A program made the position numbers and the translations under genes. Source: Thiomicrorhabdus sp. 6S3-12 (lineage in GTDB: Bacteria; Pseudomonadota; Gammaproteobacteria; Thiomicrospirales; Thiomicrospiraceae). From it: a DNA stretch of 64,000 nt. The notes beneath the pieces were generated by a model. That model ran no database searches, was not told where the DNA came from, and saw nothing but the letters and a program-made list of their open reading frames with translations. The DNA is taken from contig NZ_JAGETW010000007.1 in the NCBI RefSeq assembly GCF_017571475.1, positions 124,001 to 188,000 on the forward strand, written 5' to 3'. Every line of letters begins with the position of its first letter. Positions within the stretch are counted from its first letter, which is position 1. Shown here one piece after another: positions 7,552-52,686 of the stretch.

Positions 7552-8487
7552 ATGAATTCTAAGCCGAAAAAACGCTCTTTTTTAAAGCGCTCAGTCCACC
7601 GGGTTGCCAGTTGGATCGTGGTCGCGTTGATCCAAATTCTGTCGCTGTTGCCGCTGTCGGCAATCCGCCTGCTGGGGAAAGGAATGGGCACGCTCTTCTA
7701 CTGGCTGCCGAGTCATGCGCGTTTTCTGGCGCAGTGTAATCTGCGCGCCGTCTATCCGCAGTTATCTGAACAGGAACACAAGAAACTTCTCAAAGCGACT
7801 CTGCAGCACAACGCTCAGTCGATACTGGAACTTGGTGCCATGTGGCGCTGGCCGAAAGAGAAAGTTGAAAACTCGGTCAGAGAGGTAAAGGGGCAGGAGC
7901 TTTTGGATGCTGCCTATGCAAAGGGCAAGGGCGTTCTGTTGCTTGGTCCGCACATCGGTAATTGGGAGGTTGCCGGAAGTTATATTTCCATGAACTATCC
8001 TTCTACGATTATGTACCGCCCACCGAATCTGCAAGGGCTGGAAAAAAGTATGCGCGCAGCGAGAACCCGTTTCGGGGCGACGCTGGTGCCAACCGATTTA
8101 CGCGGTATTCGTCAGATTATCAAGGCTTTGAAAGAGAATCAGCTGTCGGCGATCTTGCCGGATCAGGACGCCGGGAAGAACGGCGTGCATGCGCCTTTTA
8201 TGGGGGTGCCGGCACGTACCATGACGCTGGTCAGCAAGTTGCTGCAGAAAAGCGAGGCGGAGTGTCTGTATCTGATCGCGCTGCGTCATCCACAGAGCGG
8301 TTTTGTTTTGCATATCTTGCCGGCGGATCGTCAGGCGTTGGCGGCCGAAGATCCGCTTGCCGCCGCCAGTGCGTTGAATCAGGGGATCGAAACCTGTATC
8401 CGTCTGGCGCCGGAGCAATATCTTTGGACCTACCGCCGCTTTCGCGGCCAGCCGGAAGGCGCGCCGAATATCTATCGCAAGCGGTAA
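7552..8487 (+). CDS. LpxL/HtrB-type lipid A acyltransferase
   Basis: Inner-membrane acyltransferase of the lysophospholipid/lipid A lauroyl (myristoyl) transferase family, acting late in lipid A synthesis. The protein has 311 residues, an N-terminal membrane anchor (about residues 20-42) and the catalytic H-x4-E box in GPHIGNWEVAG near residue 137. Downstream family features are visible, such as ILPDQDAGKNGVHAPFMG near residue 200. A GAGGC ribosome site precedes the ATG. It could be LpxL-like (laurate) or LpxM-like (myristate); the sequence alone does not settle which. Confidence 0.88.
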   Translation: MNSKPKKRSFLKRSVHRVASWIVVALIQILSLLPLSAIRLLGKGMGTLFYWLPSHARFLAQCNLRAVYPQLSEQEHKKLLKATLQHNAQSILELGAMWRWPKEKVENSVREVKGQELLDAAYAKGKGVLLLGPHIGNWEVAGSYISMNYPSTIMYRPPNLQGLEKSMRAARTRFGATLVPTDLRGIRQIIKALKENQLSAILPDQDAGKNGVHAPFMGVPARTMTLVSKLLQKSEAECLYLIALRHPQSGFVLHILPADRQALAAEDPLAAASALNQGIETCIRLAPEQYLWTYRRFRGQPEGAPNIYRKR

Positions 8488-8507
8488 CTCGTCGGATTGC
8501 CGCTCTT

Positions 8508-8975
8508 TTAAGCGTCTTGTTGCTCTGTCGAGCCGATTTTGACGTAATTCCCCTTCACCTCAAGAATAATTACTTCCGAACCGTTCTGCGGGTCCACCGG
8601 AGGTGTTTTCGGGTCAATCAGCCAGTAGGTTCCTCGATAGAAAACCGAATAGTCGCCGTTTTTATCCAGATGTAATCGGCCATAGCCGTGATCGTTTTCT
8701 GGTGCAAAACTGTCCGCCTCATTCGGGTGCTGGCTTTTTTTCAGGTAAGGGTTCAGTAGCCAGGTGAAAAGCGCGCCGAGCGCGGTGATAATTACCAGCT
8801 GCAGTCGCCAGTCGAGCGGTTGATACAGGCTGTAGATACCCATCAGAATAAACGCCAGCGCGATCCAGAAAAGCACGAAAGTCCCGACGATCAGAACTTC
8901 GCCGAGCATCATAAGAATACCGACGATAATCAGTAGCGACGGAGTCAGAGAGGAGTCGGTCATCCATTCGAACAT
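8508..8975 (-). CDS. NfeD family membrane protein
   Basis: About 155 residues: hydrophobic segments at roughly 12-30, 32-52 and 58-75, then a C-terminal OB-fold-like domain (from GYGRLHLDKNGDYSVFYRG to EVIILEVKGNYVKIG), the classic NfeD arrangement. ATG at 8975 is preferred over the adjacent GTG at 8978 because AGGAGAG lies at proper distance from the ATG. NfeD proteins are paired with SPFH-domain proteins, and here the gene follows directly after such a gene (8986-9900), so the two probably act together in membrane organisation or quality control. Confidence 0.88.
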   Translation of the reverse strand: MFEWMTDSSLTPSLLIIVGILMMLGEVLIVGTFVLFWIALAFILMGIYSLYQPLDWRLQLVIITALGALFTWLLNPYLKKSQHPNEADSFAPENDHGYGRLHLDKNGDYSVFYRGTYWLIDPKTPPVDPQNGSEVIILEVKGNYVKIGSTEQQDA

Positions 8976-8985
8976 CACGGCTCTC

Positions 8986-9900
8986 CTATTTATCCTGTTT
9001 GAGCAGGTGTTGGATCAGGCTCATGGAACCAAGCAACTCGCTGGTTTCCACCGGGATGACGATTTTGTTGCTGGAATCGGATTCGGCCAATCCGGAAAAG
9101 GCTTTAACCCGATCCTTGGCCAGCAGATATTCCGCCGCCTGAGGATTTTCCTGCATCGCCTGATTGACGGCTTCGATCGCCAGCTGCTGACCGATACCGA
9201 GTTGTTCCTGCTGGTAACGTTCGGCATCGGCGGTTCTTTCAAGCGCTTCGGCTTCAAGAAACGCCTTCTGCTTCAAGGCTTCTGCTTCGGCAATCACTGC
9301 ATTTTTTTCCGCCTGCGCTTTGGTTTCGATGGCGCGTCTTTCACGCGTCGCCTGCAACTGCAGTTCCATCGCTTTCTGCACCTCTTCCGGTACGGAAATG
9401 TCGCTGACCTCGACCCTTGTGACTTTTAGACCCCATTCGTTGCTGGCATTGTTCAGCGCCTGCATCAGGGAGGCGTTCAGATCGTCGCGCGAACTTAGGG
9501 TTTCGTCCAGTTCCAGCGAACCGATCTCGGAACGCAGGGTGGTCTGGCACAGCTGGCTGATCATATGTTTAACGTCCAGCGCGGAGTAGGTTGCCGCTTG
9601 GGCATCGGTAATGCGGATAAAGACGATACCGTCGATGAAAATGGAAACGTTGTCTTTGGTAATGACCCTTTGCGAAGGGATATCGATGGTCTGTTCCTGC
9701 ATGTTGTATTTGACGCGGACATCATCGATAAAGGGAATAATAAAGTTCAGTCCGCCTTCCAGCGTGCAGTTGTATTTTCCGAGCCGTTCGATAACCCAGT
9801 TTTCCGCCTGCGGAACGACCTTGACTCCGCGCATCAGAATAAACAGTACTGCGACAAAAAGAATAATGACCAATGCGTTGTCGGTCAGTTGAATATCCAT
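8986..9900 (-). CDS. qmcA: SPFH/stomatin-like membrane protein (QmcA type)
   Basis: 304-residue protein anchored by an N-terminal membrane helix (about residues 9-25), followed by an SPFH (Band 7) domain (VVPQAENWVIERLGKY, then the conserved ITKDNVSIFIDGIVFIRI) and an Ala/Glu-rich coiled coil (ERRAIETKAQAEKNAVIAEA). ATG at 9900 is chosen because GGAGG precedes it; an upstream start at 9960 would add 20 residues. It is paired with NfeD, which matches the known stomatin operon partner. Likely role: scaffold of membrane microdomains and protease (FtsH) control, inferred from the family. Confidence 0.88.
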   Translation of the reverse strand: MDIQLTDNALVIILFVAVLFILMRGVKVVPQAENWVIERLGKYNCTLEGGLNFIIPFIDDVRVKYNMQEQTIDIPSQRVITKDNVSIFIDGIVFIRITDAQAATYSALDVKHMISQLCQTTLRSEIGSLELDETLSSRDDLNASLMQALNNASNEWGLKVTRVEVSDISVPEEVQKAMELQLQATRERRAIETKAQAEKNAVIAEAEALKQKAFLEAEALERTADAERYQQEQLGIGQQLAIEAVNQAMQENPQAAEYLLAKDRVKAFSGLAESDSSNKIVIPVETSELLGSMSLIQHLLKQDK

Positions 9901-39776: not shown

Positions 39777-40451
39777 CTAAGCGCTGGATCGCCCGTCCCC
39801 GAGTTTTTGCAGAAACCATTTTCTGGCGGCATCTGCGGCTAGGTCGAGCGTACCCGGTTCTTCGAATAGATGGGTCGCTCCGGGAATCACGGTTAACTCG
39901 CATTCGGCGTGCATTTGCGACTGAGCCAGTTTGTTCAGTTGCAGAACTTCGTAATCCAAACCTCCGACGATCAGCAGTGTCGGCGCTTGCACCTTGGCCA
40001 ATACCGGTTGTGCCAGATCGGGCCTGCCTCCGCGCGAAACCACGGTCTTAATCTTATCGGCAAGCGATTCGGCGGCAAACAGTGCAGCGGCGGCTCCGGT
40101 GCTGGCTCCGAACAGGCCGATCGGTAAATCAGCCAGTTTCGGCTGTCGGGCGACATACTTTATGGCGTAGCGGCTTCTGTCACTTAACAGCGGAATATCG
40201 AAACGGAATTCGCGCGTCAGCATATCTATTTGGTTCTCTTCAGCAGTCAGCAAGTCAAACAGCAAAGTCGCCAAGCCAGCCTGATTAAGCAGTTGAGCGA
40301 CATGGCGGTTACGGGAACTGAAACGACTGCTGCCACTGCCGTGAATAAAAAGAACCAGGCCTCGAGCATCGTCGGGCAGGCGCAGATTTCCCTCCAGTGT
40401 GACGTCACCGGCAGGAATCTGCATGCTACTTTCTGGAATTTCAGGGTTCAT
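39777..40451 (-). CDS. Alpha/beta hydrolase (dienelactone hydrolase-like)
   Basis: 224 residues. FIHGSGSSRFSSRN supplies the oxyanion loop, the nucleophile Ser is in FGASTGAAAAL, Asp in VGGLDYEVL and His in GATHLFEEPG: a complete catalytic triad. It begins 3 bases after a phosphoribosyltransferase gene on the same strand. The two are fused in one polypeptide in many bacteria, so they probably work together, but the substrate is not known. Confidence 0.85.
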   Translation of the reverse strand: MNPEIPESSMQIPAGDVTLEGNLRLPDDARGLVLFIHGSGSSRFSSRNRHVAQLLNQAGLATLLFDLLTAEENQIDMLTREFRFDIPLLSDRSRYAIKYVARQPKLADLPIGLFGASTGAAAALFAAESLADKIKTVVSRGGRPDLAQPVLAKVQAPTLLIVGGLDYEVLQLNKLAQSQMHAECELTVIPGATHLFEEPGTLDLAADAARKWFLQKLGDGRSSA

Positions 40452-40454
40452 AAG

Positions 40455-41102
40455 CTACGCCTGCCATGCCTCTTGGAGCTGCTGTTTGACCTCGGCGTCG
40501 CTTACCTGGTCAAACTGTAGATACCACTGCCCGATCGCGGAAAAATCGTACGGCTGGAAAGGGCAGACAACCTGATCGACTTTGGATTCGATCAGTTCGA
40601 CGCTTTGCGGCGGAGCGACTGGCACGGCGACTGTGACGGATGCGGGCTTCTGCAAGCGAACCGCGTCAATTGCCGCCAGCATTGTAGAGCCGGTTGCCAG
40701 TCCGTCATCGACCAGTACGACATCGCGATTCTGCAGTGTCAGATGCGGGCGTTCGCCTCTATAGGCTTTTTCGCGCCTTTCCAGTTCTTGGCGTTCTTTG
40801 GCTTCGATGACGGCAATCTCTTTGTCGTCGATGTTATAGGCGCGAATAACGGATTGGTTGAGCACTTTGATATTGCCGCTCGCGATGGCGCCCATTGCCA
40901 GTTCCGGAAAATGCGGTGCACCGAGTTTGCGTACCAGCAGCAGATCCAATGGAGCCTTAAAGGCCTTGGCGATCTCGAAAGCGACAGGGACACCGCCTCG
41001 GGGAAGAGCCAGTATGACCGGGTTGCGGAGAGTTGTCTGTTGCTGTAAACACTCTGCCAGCCAGCGGCCGGCAGTATCTCGATCAGGTATCGGTAATTTC
41101 AT
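40455..41102 (-). CDS. Type I phosphoribosyltransferase-like protein
   Basis: 215 residues. The PRPP-binding motif is VVLVDDGLATGSTMLA near residue 120, and the N-terminal PRGGVPVAFEIA fits the phosphoribosyltransferase family (ComF/Rv0571c-like). No purine or pyrimidine genes are nearby. It precedes the alpha/beta hydrolase gene with a 3-base gap; the pair corresponds to the common phosphoribosyltransferase-hydrolase fusion. Physiological role unknown. Confidence 0.85.
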   Translation of the reverse strand: MKLPIPDRDTAGRWLAECLQQQTTLRNPVILALPRGGVPVAFEIAKAFKAPLDLLLVRKLGAPHFPELAMGAIASGNIKVLNQSVIRAYNIDDKEIAVIEAKERQELERREKAYRGERPHLTLQNRDVVLVDDGLATGSTMLAAIDAVRLQKPASVTVAVPVAPPQSVELIESKVDQVVCPFQPYDFSAIGQWYLQFDQVSDAEVKQQLQEAWQA

Positions 41103-41350
41103 GAGTCGCTTTCCTGTTGATTTTAAAGGGAAAGGGGGCGTGTGCTTTTTAGTCTAGCGATTTAGCGAAAGCGCCGTGTCGTTTTAAGATCGAAAATTGA
41201 TCCGAATAGATTACCGGGTTAAGAAATGGAAGGTGTTGTCGAGTCGTGCTTCTTGAGTGCGGTCTGGATAAATTAAACTGATTTGCTTTCAATATTTATG
41301 TTTATTAGTGTTGTAAACGTAGGTTTTTTTAACTCTTTTAGGAATGATGT

Positions 41351-41860
41351 ATGAAATTTTCCCGGTTTGCATTTTTGAAGTTGTGCTTTGCGTTATTTGT
41401 AGTGACTTTTTCGGTTCCCGGCTCTGCGACGGAATTAAACAATAGGGAAGCGATGCAAGGTCTTAAAAGCATGCATGTGATCTACGATATCCGTAAATCC
41501 ACTCCGAATGCGATGTTGGTTTATTTAAAAGGGATTGAATCCAACCGAAGCAATTTGATTAAAGAAGGGGTTGAACCGCATCAGAGAATTGTCTTTATTG
41601 CCCGTTCGGTAAAGTTCATTACCACACAACCTTCGGAAGAGGTGGAAATGCAGTATGGGCCGGTTCTCGAGAAAGTAGCGGCTCAGATCGCGCGACTGGT
41701 TGAACTGGGCGTTAAAATGGAAGTTTGTTCCGCCGCGACAGCGGCTTTTAATGTCGATAATGATACCTTGCTTCCGGGCATTAAGCCGGTCCGTTCAGGC
41801 TTTTTATCGGTGATGGGCTGGCAGGCTCAGGGATATCAGTTAGTGCCGGTTTACGATTGA
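41351..41860 (+). CDS. Exported DsrE/DsrF-like protein
   Basis: 169 residues: signal peptide (FAFLKLCFALFVVTFSVPGSA), then a DsrE-type fold of about 140 residues. One conserved Cys appears in MEVCSAATAAFNV near residue 136, at the position of the family's active Cys. DsrE-like proteins carry sulfur atoms or bind sulfur compounds; a periplasmic form fits sulfur oxidation, but no Sox or Dsr genes are beside it. A strong terminator follows. Confidence 0.72.
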   Translation: MKFSRFAFLKLCFALFVVTFSVPGSATELNNREAMQGLKSMHVIYDIRKSTPNAMLVYLKGIESNRSNLIKEGVEPHQRIVFIARSVKFITTQPSEEVEMQYGPVLEKVAAQIARLVELGVKMEVCSAATAAFNVDNDTLLPGIKPVRSGFLSVMGWQAQGYQLVPVYD

Positions 41861-41896
41861 ACCGCTCCAGGCTTATCCGTCGTAGGGTTAAATAGC

Positions 41897-41926
41897 AAGC
41901 CCGCCGTATGTTCGGCGGGTTTTTTA
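41897..41926 (+). terminator. Rho-independent terminator after the DsrE gene
   Basis: CCCGCCG (41900-41906) pairs with CGGCGGG (41913-41919), followed by seven Ts. It lies 40 bases after the DsrE stop. Confidence 0.8.
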
Positions 41927-41960
41927 TTGGTTGACGCCTTATAAGTCGGCGGTTCGGCAA

Positions 41961-42632
41961 TCATTCGAAATAGCGGGTAAAGGCTTCCACCGGTTCCCGC
42001 TCGGTGCGGTACTGGTTGACCGGATGATCGGTGTTTTCGTAGCCAAGTGCCATTCCTCCGAGCAAGAGTTTATCGTCACCGTAGCCGAGTTGTTCGCGGA
42101 TAATATCGGGATATTCTCCCAAAGCGCCTTGCGGACAGGTGCCCAGCCCTTCTTCCAGTGCCAGCAGCATAATATTCTGGACAAACATGCCATAGTCGAA
42201 AAACGAACCGGTCTGCAGATTTTTATCCATAAAGAAATACAGTGCGACCGGAGCGTCGAAACTGCGGTAGTTTGCCGCCCATTGTGCCATCTGTCCGGCC
42301 TTGTCATGGCGTTCGATCTTTAAGGCGCCATATAACTGCTTTCCGGTTTGTACCCGGCGCAGTTTATAAGCGCCTTTCCATTCGTCCGGGTAGTAAGCGT
42401 AGTCCATTTTGCCGCGTTCACCGGCAGAAAATTTATCCAGCATGGCGTTCTGTAAGCGCAGTTTTGTCTCGCCACTGACAACCGCTACCTGCCAAGGCTG
42501 AGTGTTGACTCCGGAGGGCGCATAACGCGCGGCATCCAGAATCCTCTGAACAATTGCATTGTCCACCGGCTGGTCTAAAAAAGCGCGTACGGAATGACGC
42601 TGGGTTATCGCTTGAGATACAGACAGGCTCAT
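41961..42632 (-). CDS. Nitroreductase family protein
   Basis: 223 residues, FMN-dependent NAD(P)H oxidoreductase. The ATG at 42632 follows AGGAAG and gives MSLSVSQAITQRHSVRAFL, the usual FMN-binding RHSVRAF start; a longer ORF begins at 42686. Other family marks: ARYAPSGVNTQPWQVAVVS, and GTCPQGALGEYPDIIRE near residue 160. The substrate (nitro-compounds, quinones or others) is unknown. Confidence 0.88.
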   Translation of the reverse strand: MSLSVSQAITQRHSVRAFLDQPVDNAIVQRILDAARYAPSGVNTQPWQVAVVSGETKLRLQNAMLDKFSAGERGKMDYAYYPDEWKGAYKLRRVQTGKQLYGALKIERHDKAGQMAQWAANYRSFDAPVALYFFMDKNLQTGSFFDYGMFVQNIMLLALEEGLGTCPQGALGEYPDIIREQLGYGDDKLLLGGMALGYENTDHPVNQYRTEREPVEAFTRYFE

Positions 42633-42676
42633 ATTCTTCCTTGATATTCCGATTGAAAATACTGGTTGAAAGGGGA

Positions 42677-43309
42677 TTATACCCACAGGCTCAGAGGAGG
42701 ATCCATCATCAGCGCTTTGAGCAAATCGGTTTTGCTGATGATTCCGACCAGATTATCCTGCTCGTTAACGACTGGCAGAGCGCTGAGCTGGTATTCGTAC
42801 AGTACTTGCGCCACACGGCGGACATCTGAAACGGGATCTACGGTAATGACTTCCGGATTCATAAACTCCGTAATCGGGGTGTTGGGCGGAAGCCGGTCGT
42901 GCAGACTGACTTTAAACAGCTGCTGGTAGGTCAGCAATCCGACCAGCGATTGTTGCACGTTTATCACCGGCATCTGCTGGAAGCTGCCCTTTTCAAAAAT
43001 ATCCAGAGCCTGTTTTAGCGTCGTACCGCTGTCCAGAGTGGCGACAGGCTGAGACATGATCTGGTAGGCATGCACTAGAACGCTGCGGTCGTTCAGCTGC
43101 AGCATTTTACGATAGGCTTCCCGGTGACGGGCATTGGCCGCCGTTTCAGGAGTATCCTCGGAGCCGCTTCCTTGAATGGAAAAGGTTTGCTCTCGGGCGA
43201 CATCTTCGTGCAAATCAGGGGCTTGTCCGGCGTTCGGTTGATGCACTTTGTGCAGTTGTTCCAGGCTGCTGCGGAAGCGTCTTCCTTGAATATTATAAAT
43301 AGCGAACAT
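42677..43309 (-). CDS. CBS-domain pair protein
   Basis: 210 residues. About 75 N-terminal residues of low conservation are followed by two CBS motifs: IMSQPVATLDSGTTLKQALD with MPVINVQQSLVGLLTYQQL, and FMNPEVITVDPVSDVRRVAQ with LPVVNEQDNLVGIISKTDLL. CBS pairs bind adenine nucleotides and act as energy sensors. There is no attached enzyme or channel domain, so the protein probably acts in trans. Lies upstream of the nitroreductase gene on the same strand. Confidence 0.85.
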   Translation of the reverse strand: MFAIYNIQGRRFRSSLEQLHKVHQPNAGQAPDLHEDVAREQTFSIQGSGSEDTPETAANARHREAYRKMLQLNDRSVLVHAYQIMSQPVATLDSGTTLKQALDIFEKGSFQQMPVINVQQSLVGLLTYQQLFKVSLHDRLPPNTPITEFMNPEVITVDPVSDVRRVAQVLYEYQLSALPVVNEQDNLVGIISKTDLLKALMMDPPLSLWV

Positions 43310-48238: not shown

Positions 48239-50311
48239 TTACAGAAGAGTTCTTGTCAGTTTGCGGATCACCGTTCGGGATTCGCTAGCGTCGTTAAGCG
48301 TTTCGGTTTCAATTGTGAAGCGACAGCGCTCGCCGTTTGGCGTGATAACTGTAAGATCGTCCTGCCGGGAAGGGGAAGCCATCGTATGCCGGATATATTT
48401 TGGTCCGTACTGTCTTGGCGGCAGAACGTCCTGAATCAGAACTCGGATATTCTCGACGCCGCGAATGTCACCGTAGGGTGAAGCAGTCGACCAAATCGCA
48501 TACGGATGAAAAAGCTCGCCTGCGGCCTCAGCATCCCGTCGGTCAACGCAATCGAGAAAGCGCATTAACAGCAGGCGTTTGGAATTTCGTGCTGCGTAGG
48601 CGGTGTGCAGAAGTTCATGGGCGCGCTCGGAATTCGGTTTTTCCAGCTCGGTCGCATAAAGTTTCTGAATGTCCCGGTTTTCATAAGAGCGTCTGCGCGG
48701 TGCCTGACTATCGATCTGATAAATGGCCTGCATGCGTTTGTGCAGAATATCCGGATCCATCGATTTCGGTTCCCCGCCGCCGCCAAGACATCCGCCCACG
48801 CAGGCCATCACTTCAATGGCGACATACTCCTCGCGCCATTGCTCCGATTGCAGCATTTTCTGTAATGCGGCAATGCCGTTACAGATGGCCACTTTGCCGA
48901 TACCGGGAATCTGTGCCTCCTTTATACCCTGACGAACACCACGCAGCTGCTGCCATTCCAGCGGCAAGCTGTCTTCCTGACCGATAAAATGGCTGGCCGT
49001 CCGAACCACCGCTTCCATGACGCCACCCGAGGCACCGAAAATCTGCGCGGCTCCGGTACTTTCTCCTAAAGGGTTGTCGAATTCGCCATCTTCGGGCAGG
49101 GCGCTGAAGGGAATGCCTCGCGCTTTGATCATTCGGGCCAGTTCGCGGGTTGTCAGGACGTGATCGACGTCGCCGGAAACACCGGGCCGGACGGATTCAT
49201 CCTTTTTGGCGGTGCACGGCATGACACTCACTACATAGGGTTCGTTTTTCCCGTCGGCAAAGTCGGCACCGAGCGATTGTGTGAAAGCGCCGCGTTTGGT
49301 CAGAGCTCCATGCATCTGCTGCGGCGATTTTGCGGTGCTCAGGTGCGGTAACAGATCCGGACGATTAAGCTCAACCCAGTTGACCCAGCCGGGGCAGCAG
49401 GAGGTAAACAGGGGGAGATTCTTTTGGCTTTTCAGGCGACCCAGAAATTCGCTTCCTTCTTCCATAATGGTCAGATCGGCAGCAAAATTCGTGTCAAAGA
49501 CGTAATCGAAACCGAGTGCTCTTAAGGCGTTGATCATACGACCGGTACTGACGGTACCAGGTTTCATGCCGAATTCTTCGCTGATGGCAACACGGGTTGC
49601 CGGAGCGACCTGTACGGCCGAAATTCTTCTATGGGCATCAAGCGTATGCAGAACTTCATGCCAGTGTGGCGTTTCGATCAGGGCGCCGACCGGGCACACC
49701 AGCGTGCATTGACCGCAGGAGATGCACTTGGTTTCGGATAATGGCTTGTCGAAAACCGTTACCGGCATGCGTCCCTCGCCGTGTTCGGCGAAACCGATAA
49801 TATTCTGCTGCTGACCCGGTTCACCGCAGGCTTCGGCACAGAGTCCGCATTCAATGCATTTTGAAAGATCGCGCCAGATACTGGGGGAGGTATGGTCGGT
49901 CAGGCGGTGTTCGGGGTGCTCAGCCGATCCTCGCGGAAGTTTCGGCCATTTGTCTTCCAGCTGATATTCGCTGACCAGATTCTGAAACTGGCAAGAGCCG
50001 TTGACTTCGCAGCGGATGCAGTCGTTCGGATGTCGGGCCAGAAGCCACTGTGCATCCGCTTTACGGAAAGCGATTAATTCATCGCTGTCGGTTTCGATAA
50101 TGTCGCCGTGCTGGGCTAGAGTTTTACAGGCAGGTTGTGGTTTTTGAGCGCCCCGAACTTTCACCAGACACATTCGACATACTGCATGGGAGGGCAGACG
50201 GGGATAGTAGCAGAGGGTCGGGATATGAACTTCCGCTTTTCTGGCGGCATCCAGCAAAGTTGCTCCGCTGTCGACTTCAACAACACGCCCATTAACCGTG
50301 ACCTGAATCAT
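48239..50311 (-). CDS. [FeFe] hydrogenase with C-terminal NTF2-like domain
   Basis: 690 residues, single-subunit iron-only hydrogenase, catalysing reversible H2 formation. Order: [2Fe-2S] domain with Cys34, 45, 48 and 62; His-ligated [4Fe-4S] motif (His94, Cys98, 101, 107); two [4Fe-4S] motifs CIECGLCAEAC and CISCGQCTLVC; H-cluster domain with all three signatures, TSCCPGW near 301, MPCTAKKDE near 364 and EVMACVGGCLGGGGEP near 498; then the small-subunit-like helix region. The last 115 residues or so (from about 575) are extra and look NTF2/SnoaL-like (LMRFLDCVDRRDAEAAGELF). No maturation genes (hydE, F, G) in the window. It follows selD after 107 bases; the electron partner is unknown. Confidence 0.93.
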   Translation of the reverse strand: MIQVTVNGRVVEVDSGATLLDAARKAEVHIPTLCYYPRLPSHAVCRMCLVKVRGAQKPQPACKTLAQHGDIIETDSDELIAFRKADAQWLLARHPNDCIRCEVNGSCQFQNLVSEYQLEDKWPKLPRGSAEHPEHRLTDHTSPSIWRDLSKCIECGLCAEACGEPGQQQNIIGFAEHGEGRMPVTVFDKPLSETKCISCGQCTLVCPVGALIETPHWHEVLHTLDAHRRISAVQVAPATRVAISEEFGMKPGTVSTGRMINALRALGFDYVFDTNFAADLTIMEEGSEFLGRLKSQKNLPLFTSCCPGWVNWVELNRPDLLPHLSTAKSPQQMHGALTKRGAFTQSLGADFADGKNEPYVVSVMPCTAKKDESVRPGVSGDVDHVLTTRELARMIKARGIPFSALPEDGEFDNPLGESTGAAQIFGASGGVMEAVVRTASHFIGQEDSLPLEWQQLRGVRQGIKEAQIPGIGKVAICNGIAALQKMLQSEQWREEYVAIEVMACVGGCLGGGGEPKSMDPDILHKRMQAIYQIDSQAPRRRSYENRDIQKLYATELEKPNSERAHELLHTAYAARNSKRLLLMRFLDCVDRRDAEAAGELFHPYAIWSTASPYGDIRGVENIRVLIQDVLPPRQYGPKYIRHTMASPSRQDDLTVITPNGERCRFTIETETLNDASESRTVIRKLTRTLL

Positions 50312-50437: not shown

Positions 50438-50812
50438 TTAATTTATTTCGCCGTTAATCCAGGCCAGGGCTTCAGTAACTTTGGCGAATTCGACCATATT
50501 ATCGAGCCCCTCGGCATAAGCGCTGACCAGTATGAAAGGGTGTGGGTTGTGATGTTTCTTTACAATCGCCGTCTTATTGCGCCGGAAGTAATGTGCATTT
50601 CTGGCAAGGCGTTTTCCGTATTCCAGTTGCTCCTCATCAGACATATGGGTTTCAGCTTCGGAAACATTGATCAGTACGTTCATATGCGGCTGGATTTTCA
50701 GAATCTCGATTAACTGATCCAGCAGATCAATTCTGTCCTGGTGGGAGGTTTCTTTATCGTAAAAAGCGTGAAGCAGATTGTTTTCAATATCCTTATGGAG
50801 TGTAAATCCCAT
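50438..50812 (-). CDS. STAS/SpoIIAA-like small protein
   Basis: 124 residues if started at ATG 50812 (MGFTLHKDIENNLLHAFY). A longer frame runs to 51001, but its first part overlaps a structured intergenic element seen also around 51002-51480 and reads like non-coding DNA, so I reject it. The protein has an alternating strand-helix pattern with MNVLINVSEAETHMSDEEQ and NKTAIVKKHHNPHPFILVSAYAEG, in keeping with the STAS_2/SpoIIAA-like families. Function unknown; family assignment is by eye. Confidence 0.55.
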   Translation of the reverse strand: MGFTLHKDIENNLLHAFYDKETSHQDRIDLLDQLIEILKIQPHMNVLINVSEAETHMSDEEQLEYGKRLARNAHYFRRNKTAIVKKHHNPHPFILVSAYAEGLDNMVEFAKVTEALAWINGEIN

Positions 50813-51513
50813 TGAAGCGCCCTTTTTGAGAGTAACTTCCACCGGTTCGGGTAAATCAGGTAAGTGGTTCAGGAAGTTGAATTTTCGTATGAGAGTAAAA
50901 AATACCAGAATTTTCCCGTTAAGGGTAAATTCATCGCGAATAAATGCAAAAAGCCCAGTCGGGTTTTTGTTCATTTCTTGCTTGCCCAAGAAACGAACCA
51001 AAGAAAGGCTCCCTCCGTTCCATTCGCGGGAGCCTTCTAGCGCTTGAGTTTGGCGCGTCGTAACTCCCTCGCGGATACGCTCGGTCTAACAATCTCCGCG
51101 CTGATCAAACTCATCGCTAAGAATGCTCACCACTTATTCCAAGAGGGAATCCTCTTTATTTGGCGTTGTGAGAGTCCAAAACTCCAAACAAAATTTATCG
51201 CCTTAAAAAAAGTCTAAAAGAAGAATGTCGATGTAGAGCCTAAAAACACAAATCCTCTTTGGAGTGCGCTTAGGCTGAGTCAGCGAAAATTTTGCAATAG
51301 CGGCGGTGGCTGTCTGAGCCCGCTTGCGGGCGAGTTAAAGCCGCGCAAAATTAAGCGCTATTCAGTCTTGGTAAACGGAACAGGGTGTCTTTTTTTGCCT
51401 ACTTTCTCGGCTCTTCGCCGAGTTCGTTGTTTGTTGGACAAGCAACAAAGTAAGGGGAGAGATTGTATTCCATAGGATAAAGTAATTTTCTTAAAAGATT
51501 TCGATATTGGTGT
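50813..51513 (-). repeat. Structured intergenic element, no gene
   Basis: About 700 bases without a convincing gene. Read on the minus strand it runs from CTTACTTTGTTGCTTGTCC (near 51454) to TTTCTTTGGTTCGTTTCTT (near 51004), sequence types I associate with a widespread intergenic repeat of Proteobacteria (recalled, not searched). Hairpins: GGCTCCC/GGGAGCC (51008-51035), GCCCGC-TT-GCGGGC (51318-51331), CTCGGC/GCCGAG (51406-51422). Whether other copies exist in this genome cannot be seen here. Confidence 0.45.
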
Positions 51514-52686
51514 TTAGATAGAACTGAATAATTCTTCAATTTTGATAATTTGTTTTGCAGAATTATTTAGTTGATTTAATAGGTCTTCTAGTACGGCTAC
51601 AGCGCGTCTTTTCGATCTGGTAAATTCACTTGTTAGACTAGGCATGTTCTTGATCACATTCTGGAATGTAATCAGTTGTTCTAATGTTGTTAAAACTGAT
51701 TTTTTATAATTTATTAATTCCCTTAAATAATCGGGAATTTCGCTTTTATTGAGGTATGGAGCCAATATTATAGCGATTTTTGTAAAGGCTTCTGCGAACG
51801 TCAAATTTTGTGTATGTAAATTTGGAATTTCTTTGGAAAGATTTGTTGTAAAAAACTCTATGTCTTTAGCGGATTTAGATGTAATTTCGAGAATTTCTAA
51901 AAAATTAGATTTTTCAGTTGCTTGATAAATTTCTTGTGTTCTCAGTTCAAACTTTGATTTTAATTCCAAAGTGAAGTCGGTTAGTCTGTGAACGATAACA
52001 CTAACTTCATTCATTGCTAGATTGCTTTTTGTTACCAGGGCTTCGATATTTTCTTCTAAATCAGCATCAAGTTCATCAAGAGAATTTAGGTTTAAAAGTG
52101 GATCTGATGAATCGTATTTATTTTTGTCTGAGTTTAATGATATTGAATTATTGCCCTGAAGCCATTTTTTCAAAATATCAGTTAAGTGGATTCTGATATT
52201 GGTTTCAAAATCATCAGTGGTTTCAAATTGTTGATATAAGGCACCGTGAGTATTTGATAACTCATTCTTGAAATCCTGAATTTTTGCCACTTGTTCTGTA
52301 TCGAGTTTACTAGGAGCAATTCCTGCGTCTTTGAAGTAGAACATGATTTCTATGTTCTCCCCTTTTTTGTATCTGTCTAACGCTCTTGTAAATTCTTCTT
52401 CAGTGCCTGAATTTGCTTTCGGCGTGGGAGTTCCATATCTGCCCCATAGTACACCTACAAAAATATCAAAATCATCGCCTATTTGGCTGTTGATTACTTC
52501 CTGAGGATATTTACCAATAGCAGGTCTTGTATGTGTTTCCCATTTGATTAACTCAAGCATTACATTATGATGAGTTGACCACGTCCTATTTATCTCATTG
52601 ATTGCGTTTAAAACAACTTCTCTTTCTGGTTGAACATCGCTTGGAGAAGCGATGAATACCTTAAGAATGGTGCAGGTTCTAGCCAT
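51514..52686 (-). CDS. DUF4062 domain protein, AT-rich, possible defence gene
   Basis: 390 residues. The N-terminus matches DUF4062, a TIR/STIR-like Rossmann family: LKVFIASPSDVQPEREVVLN (residues 8-27), then IGDDFDIFVGVLWGRYGTP near 77 and GTEEEFTRALDRY near 103. The rest, about 200 residues, is helical and coil-like with no domain I recognise. DUF4062 is common at the N-terminus of STAND ATPases and of suspected anti-phage proteins; an NTPase is absent here. The gene is strongly AT-rich: in one hand-counted line (51541-51600) 17 of 60 bases are G or C, against 32 of 60 in gltD (53041-53100). Probably acquired by transfer. Confidence 0.72.
   Translation of the reverse strand: MARTCTILKVFIASPSDVQPEREVVLNAINEINRTWSTHHNVMLELIKWETHTRPAIGKYPQEVINSQIGDDFDIFVGVLWGRYGTPTPKANSGTEEEFTRALDRYKKGENIEIMFYFKDAGIAPSKLDTEQVAKIQDFKNELSNTHGALYQQFETTDDFETNIRIHLTDILKKWLQGNNSISLNSDKNKYDSSDPLLNLNSLDELDADLEENIEALVTKSNLAMNEVSVIVHRLTDFTLELKSKFELRTQEIYQATEKSNFLEILEITSKSAKDIEFFTTNLSKEIPNLHTQNLTFAEAFTKIAIILAPYLNKSEIPDYLRELINYKKSVLTTLEQLITFQNVIKNMPSLTSEFTRSKRRAVAVLEDLLNQLNNSAKQIIKIEELFSSI

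Follow-up and report, generated by a model that had tools for sequence, protein, structure and literature searches.

An [FeFe]-hydrogenase homologue with a fused NTF2-like domain, conserved in scattered Proteobacteria whose tested genomes have no HydE, HydF or HydG above cut-off

The window analysed here is a stretch of 64,000 nucleotides from Thiomicrorhabdus sp. 6S3-12 (contig NZ_JAGETW010000007.1), an organism that had been assigned to the sulfur oxidisers and whose nearest named relatives are indeed sulfur-oxidising Thiomicrorhabdus. On the minus strand it carries an intact open reading frame (50311..48239, stop codon included) that starts with ATG and encodes 690 residues. The gene is composed of the following parts.

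48239..50311, minus strand: whole gene, M3-type [FeFe]-hydrogenase homologue with a SnoaL/NTF2 domain, 690 amino acids
49892..50311, minus strand: NuoG-like N-terminus, residues 1-140 (Pfam Fer2_4 and NADH-G_4Fe-4S_3)
49646..49891, minus strand: ferredoxin-like domain for two [4Fe-4S] clusters, residues 141-222 (Pfam Fer4 repeats)
48764..49645, minus strand: H-domain, the active-site domain, residues 223-516 (Fe_hyd_lg_C, E 4.8e-83, residues 232-512)
49385..49405, minus strand: H-cluster motif L1, TSCCPGW, residues 303-309 (alignment to CpI, 4xdd)
49205..49222, minus strand: H-cluster motif L2, MPCTAK, residues 364-369 (alignment to CpI, 4xdd)
48788..48814, minus strand: H-cluster motif L3, EVMACVGGC, residues 500-508 (alignment to CpI, 4xdd)
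48584..48763, minus strand: small-subunit-like C-terminus of the standard enzyme, residues 517-576 (Fe_hyd_SSU, E 2.3e-19, residues 521-575)
48242..48583, minus strand: tail with a SnoaL/NTF2 fold, residues 577-690 (Pfam, fold prediction and structure comparison)

The cluster motifs, including the three H-cluster signatures, had been described as intact in the original prediction, and TSCCPGW, MPCTAK and EVMACVGGC are all present. The ligands of a [2Fe-2S] cluster (C34, C45, C48, C62) and of a His/Cys3 [4Fe-4S] cluster (H94, C98, C101, C107) lie within residues 1-140 and are kept in all covering distinct rows of the family alignment (73 or 74 of 77), and those of the ferredoxin-like domain (C152, C155, C158, C162 and C196, C199, C202, C206) are found in all 74 covering rows. 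Judged by sequence, the ligands for a full N-terminal Fe-S relay and all four ligands of the [4Fe-4S]H cubane are present. The L1, L2 and L3 cysteines, the pocket residues and a TIGR02512 score of 440 bits against a cut-off of 405.95 classify the predicted protein as a group A [FeFe] hydrogenase, whereas its score for the NADH-linked group A6 (NF040763, 658 bits) lies below the cut-off of 765. The closest solved structures are HydA of Thermoanaerobacter kivui, HydA of Acetobacterium woodii (A6/HydABC) and CpI of Clostridium pasteurianum, with which the fusion shares the order of Fe-S, H- and small-subunit domains and an identity of 36-40% in structural alignments. The H-cluster ligands are the same as in CpI and the A6 HydA proteins, and the pocket is nearly the same, but the fusion differs from them in its NTF2 tail, in its score under the A6 cut-off, in the family-specific residues R317 and E514, in the absence of HydEFG from the genomes tested and in the lack of a widely shared NuoE/NuoF-type neighbour. 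Modelling of the whole protein gave a poor prediction for the N-terminal Fe-S region, with a pLDDT below 50 at residues 123-191.

Because the Fe_hyd_SSU match spans residues 521-575, the standard enzyme ends near residue 575. An added C-terminal domain with the look of SnoaL/NTF2 had been proposed for the remainder, and Pfam family matches, a confident model and structural matches to ketosteroid isomerases (KSI) and NTF2 proteins bear this out. In the window protein, the tail matches SnoaL_2 (E 2.5e-4, 24.5 bits against a gathering threshold of 27) and SnoaL_4 (E 3.3e-3, 21.4 bits against 24), both below the curated cut-offs. Across 27 tails of the family, SnoaL_2 matched 27 and SnoaL_4 matched 25 at E ≤ 0.01, the best value being 1.8e-10 for SnoaL_4 in a relative. 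Folded alone, the tail is modelled with a pLDDT of 91.3 and with the order of strands and helices of an NTF2 domain. A Foldseek search with this model placed ketosteroid isomerases on top (E 1.1e-4, probability 1.00), and VIA-align gave a best Z of 13.1 with an rmsd of 2.3 across 101 residues; among the 50 matches listed, SnoaL, NTF2 and ketosteroid isomerase structures scored Z values of 11.6-13.1 over 96-111 residues. The model therefore assigns the tail an NTF2/KSI fold. The tail is neither disordered nor an ordinary small-subunit region, the two readings that had been named as grounds for doubt, since it is predicted to be folded and NTF2-like and the Fe_hyd_SSU region is separate from it. 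Although the fold resembles that of the SnoaL/NTF2/ketosteroid isomerase superfamily, identity to the structures listed is just 9-21%, and any catalytic role of the tail would be putative. A sequence search of the Protein Data Bank with the tail returned no match. The residues that are invariant in the 27-row alignment of the tail include W607, R641, H642, F665 and R687.

Collecting homologues yielded 85 rows, of which 77 are full-length with an identical domain order and the other 8 are pieces from contig ends or breaks; because this order is shared by 77 of the 85 rows, the fusion is far beyond chance. At a threshold of 99.5%, the rows represent 77 distinct sequences (71 of them full-length) that are 64-95% identical to the window protein and are carried by alpha-, beta-, gamma- and zetaproteobacteria. 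Within the host's family, the fusion was found in 17 of 62 genomes, the carriers belonging to three genera; two of these 17 copies are fragmentary, one of them in genome G058, where some of the pieces contain internal stop codons. A scan of one genome per species across 84,980 species, which detects close relatives only, returned 68 loci, 60 of which run from residue 1 to residue 687-690 as a single reading. The remainder comprise six pieces (L078, L083, L085, L087, L090 and L095), a broken second copy (L100) and an unfused actinobacterial enzyme from a Propionibacteriaceae MAG (L099), the sole non-proteobacterial record by title. The proteobacterial loci are 64-81% identical to the window protein in their best segments and come from Thiomicrorhabdus, Hydrogenovibrio, Hyphomonas, Thioclava, Jannaschia, Alloyangia, Janthinobacterium, Pseudoduganella, Rhodoferax, Mariprofundus and other genera. 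Aerobic growth is known for most carrier genera. An even sample of the phylum, searched at E 1e-60, contained the fusion in 2 of 397 other genomes and an unfused hydrogenase in one. The fusion is rare, scattered and conserved, as follows from the 17 of 62 host-family genomes, the 68 scan loci and the 2 of 397 genomes in the phylum sample. The search of other genomes that had been proposed thus recovered it in scattered Proteobacteria. The original prediction had considered the fusion unfamiliar, which holds insofar as we found none described in the literature searched, but it is a conserved family of 77 distinct sequences and not a one-off.

The broken copy L100 (positions 8001-9362) belongs to Aquabacterium sp. 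CECT 9606 and lies approximately 17 kb from the intact copy L074 on the same contig; it is shortened, with residues ~157-277 and ~399-511 missing. Collections of plasmids (15 records) and phages (24 records) contained no close fusion, with all matches below 60% identity; among the matches listed (15 of 15 plasmid rows and the best 20 of 24 phage rows), none extends beyond residue 581. The human-faecal phage records MT835590, MT835800 and MT837374 match canonical hydrogenases over their full length and have no tail; they are possibly mis-binned bacterial DNA. A quick tree of the family left many forks unresolved, and its outgroup branch was very long.

To describe the pocket, we aligned the 85 rows (77 distinct sequences), excluding the broken copy L100 and the unfused L099 and L108 from the counts; two rows end at a contig end, L085 at residue 550 and L078 at residue 598. 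The register of 21 pocket and proton-path positions was verified on the CpI alignment, and the CpI residue numbers and the roles assigned to these positions are those that we take to apply. In motif L1, C305 and C306 correspond to CpI C299 and C300, and both cysteines occur in 76 of 76 covering rows. The L2 residues C366 and K369 correspond to CpI C355 and K358 (all 77 rows have M, C and K), and C504 and C508 of L3 to CpI C499 and C503 (all 77 rows have E, M and both C). Altogether, 16 of the 21 positions are identical to CpI across all covering rows, namely C299, C300, C355, C499, C503, K358, M353, M497, P324, F417, A230, P231, E279, E282, R286 and the motif L3 glutamate. Three further positions are near-invariant (Q325 in 74 of 76 rows, S319 in 75 of 76 and T356 in 76 of 77), and CpI S232 and S357 are replaced by alanine in every covering row, as they are in some canonical enzymes. 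The di-iron pocket and the proton path, as read from the alignment, are nearly unchanged.

Beyond the pocket, five canonical sequences agree at 72 H-domain positions, and at 62 of these at least 98% of fusions have the same residue. Conversely, at 20 positions in the H-domain and the first part of the small-subunit region, at least 98% of the family share a residue that differs from all five canonical sequences; among these residues are R317, which replaces a tyrosine, and E514, which replaces glutamine or asparagine. Between the window gene and a relative of 95% identity, dN/dS amounts to 0.012/0.348 (~0.03) in the H-domain and to 0.089/0.476 in the tail, values that indicate strong purifying selection on the fusion gene.

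In the absence of HydE, HydF and HydG, [FeFe] hydrogenases are generally regarded as non-functional. The requirement of the [FeFe] enzyme for three maturases is also stated in the part of PMC4967309 available to us. We searched for hydE, hydF and hydG elsewhere in the genome, as had been proposed, and the outcome was negative both in the window genome and in the relatives tested. HydG was above cut-off in none of 75 distinct carrier genomes: neither in the window genome (0 of 1), nor in the main carrier set (0 of 37, or 32 distinct genomes after removal of five duplicates with identical coordinates or identical proteins), nor in two further carriers (0 of 2, one with the same protein as a genome in the next set and counted once), nor in 42 carriers reached via named loci (0 of 42, with a best match of 19.8 bits and E 3.2e-4 in one genome). 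This count includes L085, the gene of which is known only to residue 550, and leaves the L062 and L090 genomes outside. HydF was likewise above cut-off in none of 37 carriers (32 distinct), the matches listed covering the N-terminal GTPase part only, and HydE in none of the same 37 (32 distinct), with one match at 21.6 bits. The genomic requirement for a HydEFG-matured H-cluster, HydE plus HydF plus HydG, is therefore lacking, and the description of the protein as a complete catalytic hydrogenase loses its support as it stood.

Each of the three maturase searches recovered one of 14 named control genomes above cut-off, by inference that of Thermotoga maritima. In a control of the same class with an unfused hydA (G374), HydG scores 536 bits and is encoded approximately 1.2 kb from hydA on one contig. 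The genome of the unfused L099, a MAG that may be incomplete, showed no HydG, so the expectation that HydG accompanies a canonical hydrogenase is weakened; only a small number of controls tie unfused hydrogenases to HydG. The assemblies of relatives include drafts, and the completeness of genomes reached via named loci is not stated, but the 15 host-family carriers that are 99-100% complete were all negative for HydE, HydF and HydG.

In the window genome, listed as 100% complete in 19 contigs, the search for radical-SAM proteins detected 11, assigned as MoaA, RimO, HemW, HemN, MiaB, BioB, LipA, RlmN, EpmB, QueE and an AmmeMemoRadiSam enzyme; as all 11 are otherwise named, there is no orphan HydE or HydG among them. 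HypF takes part in the synthesis of cyanide for [NiFe] enzymes; it was absent above cut-off from this genome and present above cut-off in 6 of 34 carriers, with an additional partial match below cut-off in genome G078. Because the radical-SAM proteins are otherwise named and HypF is absent, we found no known route to CN and CO ligands in this genome. The AmmeMemoRadiSam enzyme was considered as an alternative maturase. Within the host's family, it occurs in 11 of 17 carriers vs. 9 of 45 non-carriers, numbers that are uncorrected for kinship and in which the nine include one fragment below cut-off; because six carriers are without it, it was ruled out as a general answer. In the window genome, the gene of this enzyme (G000:C19:24034-25083, L118) adjoins a Memo-like ORF that was named by eye.

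Homologues of [FeFe] hydrogenase without maturases are already known, one by one. Those of Rhodospirillum rubrum and of Entamoeba and Mastigamoeba were likewise reported to occur without (all) maturases in the available part of PMC4967309, in which earlier authors judged the Rhodospirillum rubrum proteins to be probably inactive or differently employed; the reference list of PMC7460606, also available in part, contains a paper whose title claims activity of a recombinant Entamoeba enzyme. No Rhodospirillum record is among our 68 scan loci. According to the part of PMC4744846 available to us, group A1 as defined by Greening et al. (2015) includes proteins of T. chilensis, T. kuenenii, T. pelophila and H. 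marinus whose functionality is uncertain, and T. chilensis, T. kuenenii and T. pelophila did not consume H2 under the conditions used, the tests covering consumption only, under the conditions provided. Because T. chilensis carries the fusion (L096, 79% identity), the group A1 proteins of Thiomicrospira/Hydrogenovibrio very likely are the fusion family; the same part of that source is silent on the tail and on the missing maturases. CbA5H and the Clostridium perfringens hydrogenase-rubrerythrin chimera, as far as the partial sources go, also combine an [FeFe] core with an accessory part. In the chimera this part is, by title, rubrerythrin, unlike the NTF2 tail. The accessory domain of CbA5H also differs from the NTF2 tail. 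Proteobacteria, maturases and HydEFG are mentioned nowhere in the available part of PMC8924675. In the open-licence literature searched, we found no description of a fusion of SnoaL/NTF2 with an [FeFe] hydrogenase, nor of the combination of an NTF2 fusion, family-wide absence of HydEFG and near-complete conservation of the pocket.

A pocket that is kept almost letter for letter without HydG implies either a second way of building the cofactor or a different chemistry in the same pocket. Non-H2 chemistry or a substitute ligand is ranked first because HydEFG are absent and published tests showed no H2 consumption. Our preferred reading, held tentatively and with slightly less than even confidence, is that the fusion acts as an active low-potential soluble redox enzyme in which the site beside the cubane is filled by a product that does not stem from HydEFG and a small molecule is reduced. 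Electrons from ferredoxin or NAD(P)H partners would enter via the N-terminal clusters and pass to the cubane of the H-domain; the open site beside the cubane would be occupied by something that HydEFG do not make and would carry out the proton-coupled reduction of a small molecule, probably in a reaction other than classical H2 turnover and probably under oxygen limitation. The NTF2 tail would most likely dimerise the protein or cover the H-domain and tune access to it, and its faster evolution suits such a peripheral role. Against this reading, residues that serve H2 chemistry (CpI C299, K358, E279, E282, R286 and S319) are near-invariant, as if di-iron chemistry had been kept, and most of the canonical invariant H-domain positions are retained.

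Because the kept residues are exactly those of H2 chemistry, a true H2-active [FeFe] hydrogenase is a serious second, although less probable than the preferred reading: its di-iron subcluster would be built by an undiscovered route independent of HydEFG, and the tail would serve cofactor delivery or oxygen protection. The 16 positions shared with CpI, the near-invariance of Q325, S319 and T356, the occurrence of the two alanines in some canonical enzymes and the strong purifying selection all speak for it, but the window genome has neither HydE, HydF or HydG, nor an unassigned radical-SAM enzyme, nor HypF above cut-off, no widely shared neighbour offers itself as a new maturase, and the three species reported on in the available part of PMC4744846 consumed no H2 despite having been assigned such genes. 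A broader reading, a working H-cluster or close di-iron analogue built by a new route without HydEFG and, in most carriers tested, without the Hyp pathway, in presumably mostly aerobic cells and with the tail taking part in its assembly or protecting it from oxygen, appears a shade less probable still. A non-catalytic relic or scaffold, that is, an apo-hydrogenase with Fe-S clusters only that serves as an electron-transfer or sensory module via its NTF2 tail, is improbable. It would account for the absent maturases, the tail fold is common to ligand-binding, enzymatic and oligomerising proteins, local decay is seen in the broken L100 copy and in the fragmentary G058 copy with its stops, and a similar judgement on the Rhodospirillum rubrum homologues is found in the part of PMC4967309 cited above; however, the proton-relay cysteine, the L2 lysine and the Glu/Arg/Ser path are kept in all or nearly all rows at 64-95% identity, which is unexpected for a scaffold.

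That maturases are present but were missed, being too divergent for the models, located on a replicon missing from the assembly or provided by a second organism, is very unlikely: draft assemblies among the relatives leave some room for it, but the 15 nearly complete host-family carriers are all negative, the few radical-SAM proteins of the window genome are all named otherwise, and the same search detected HydG at high score in the same-class control. Least probable of all is an ordinary HydEFG-matured catalytic hydrogenase with an extra domain, the view taken in the original prediction; intact motifs and a TIGR02512 score above cut-off agree with it, but HydG in none of the 75 distinct carriers and HydE and HydF in none of 32 argue strongly against it. 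Surveys that score such genes as hydrogenases may overstate H2 metabolism in Proteobacteria.

Together, the genes around the fusion and the motifs upstream of it hint only weakly at a role under low oxygen. Neighbours were clustered across 69 loci, comprising the 68 scan loci (L099 and L100 included) and the window; the fusion gene itself was placed in 64 of these and missed in five, in which a longer ORF on the opposite strand had been selected. No neighbour was widely shared in the 69 loci, the commonest cluster besides the fusion gene being a short-chain dehydrogenase in 8 loci. HydB/HydC (NuoF/NuoE-like) genes were not conserved beside the gene in the 69 loci, in which not every single neighbour is annotated, so the A6 context was not recovered. 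At least one of ten neighbour clusters occurred in 28 of 69 loci (24 of 64), with flanks of varying length and close relatives unmerged. The ten clusters include short-chain dehydrogenase, AMP-binding acyl-CoA synthetase, 2-oxoacid dehydrogenase E1/E2, cation ATPase, Hsp20, CBS, phosphoribosyltransferase, nitroreductase and Zn-alcohol dehydrogenase, and genes of these kinds occur in low-oxygen regulons. Of 67 sequences, among which a few genomes are represented twice, 18 have an FNR-type box with at least 8 of 10 consensus positions within 250 nt upstream, vs. 8.3 expected from first-order resampling, and the best box of the window itself has 7 of 10 positions; we did not consider this excess persuasive.

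Directly upstream of the fusion gene, the window contains an ORF of 187 residues (50438-51001, minus strand) with no Pfam match at E 0.001, and further upstream an ORF of 390 residues (51514-52686, minus strand) with no NCBIfam match at E 1e-5, the N-terminus of which presumably resembles DUF4062-type proteins. At 39777-43309, genes for an alpha/beta hydrolase, a phosphoribosyltransferase, a DsrE-like protein, a nitroreductase and a CBS protein lie in one stretch, and single members of this set reappear near the fusion in other loci. The betaproteobacterial bins L046, L047 and L050 have upstream stretches in common, with a pair of small ORFs that, by eye, is PIN/Phd-type toxin-antitoxin-like.
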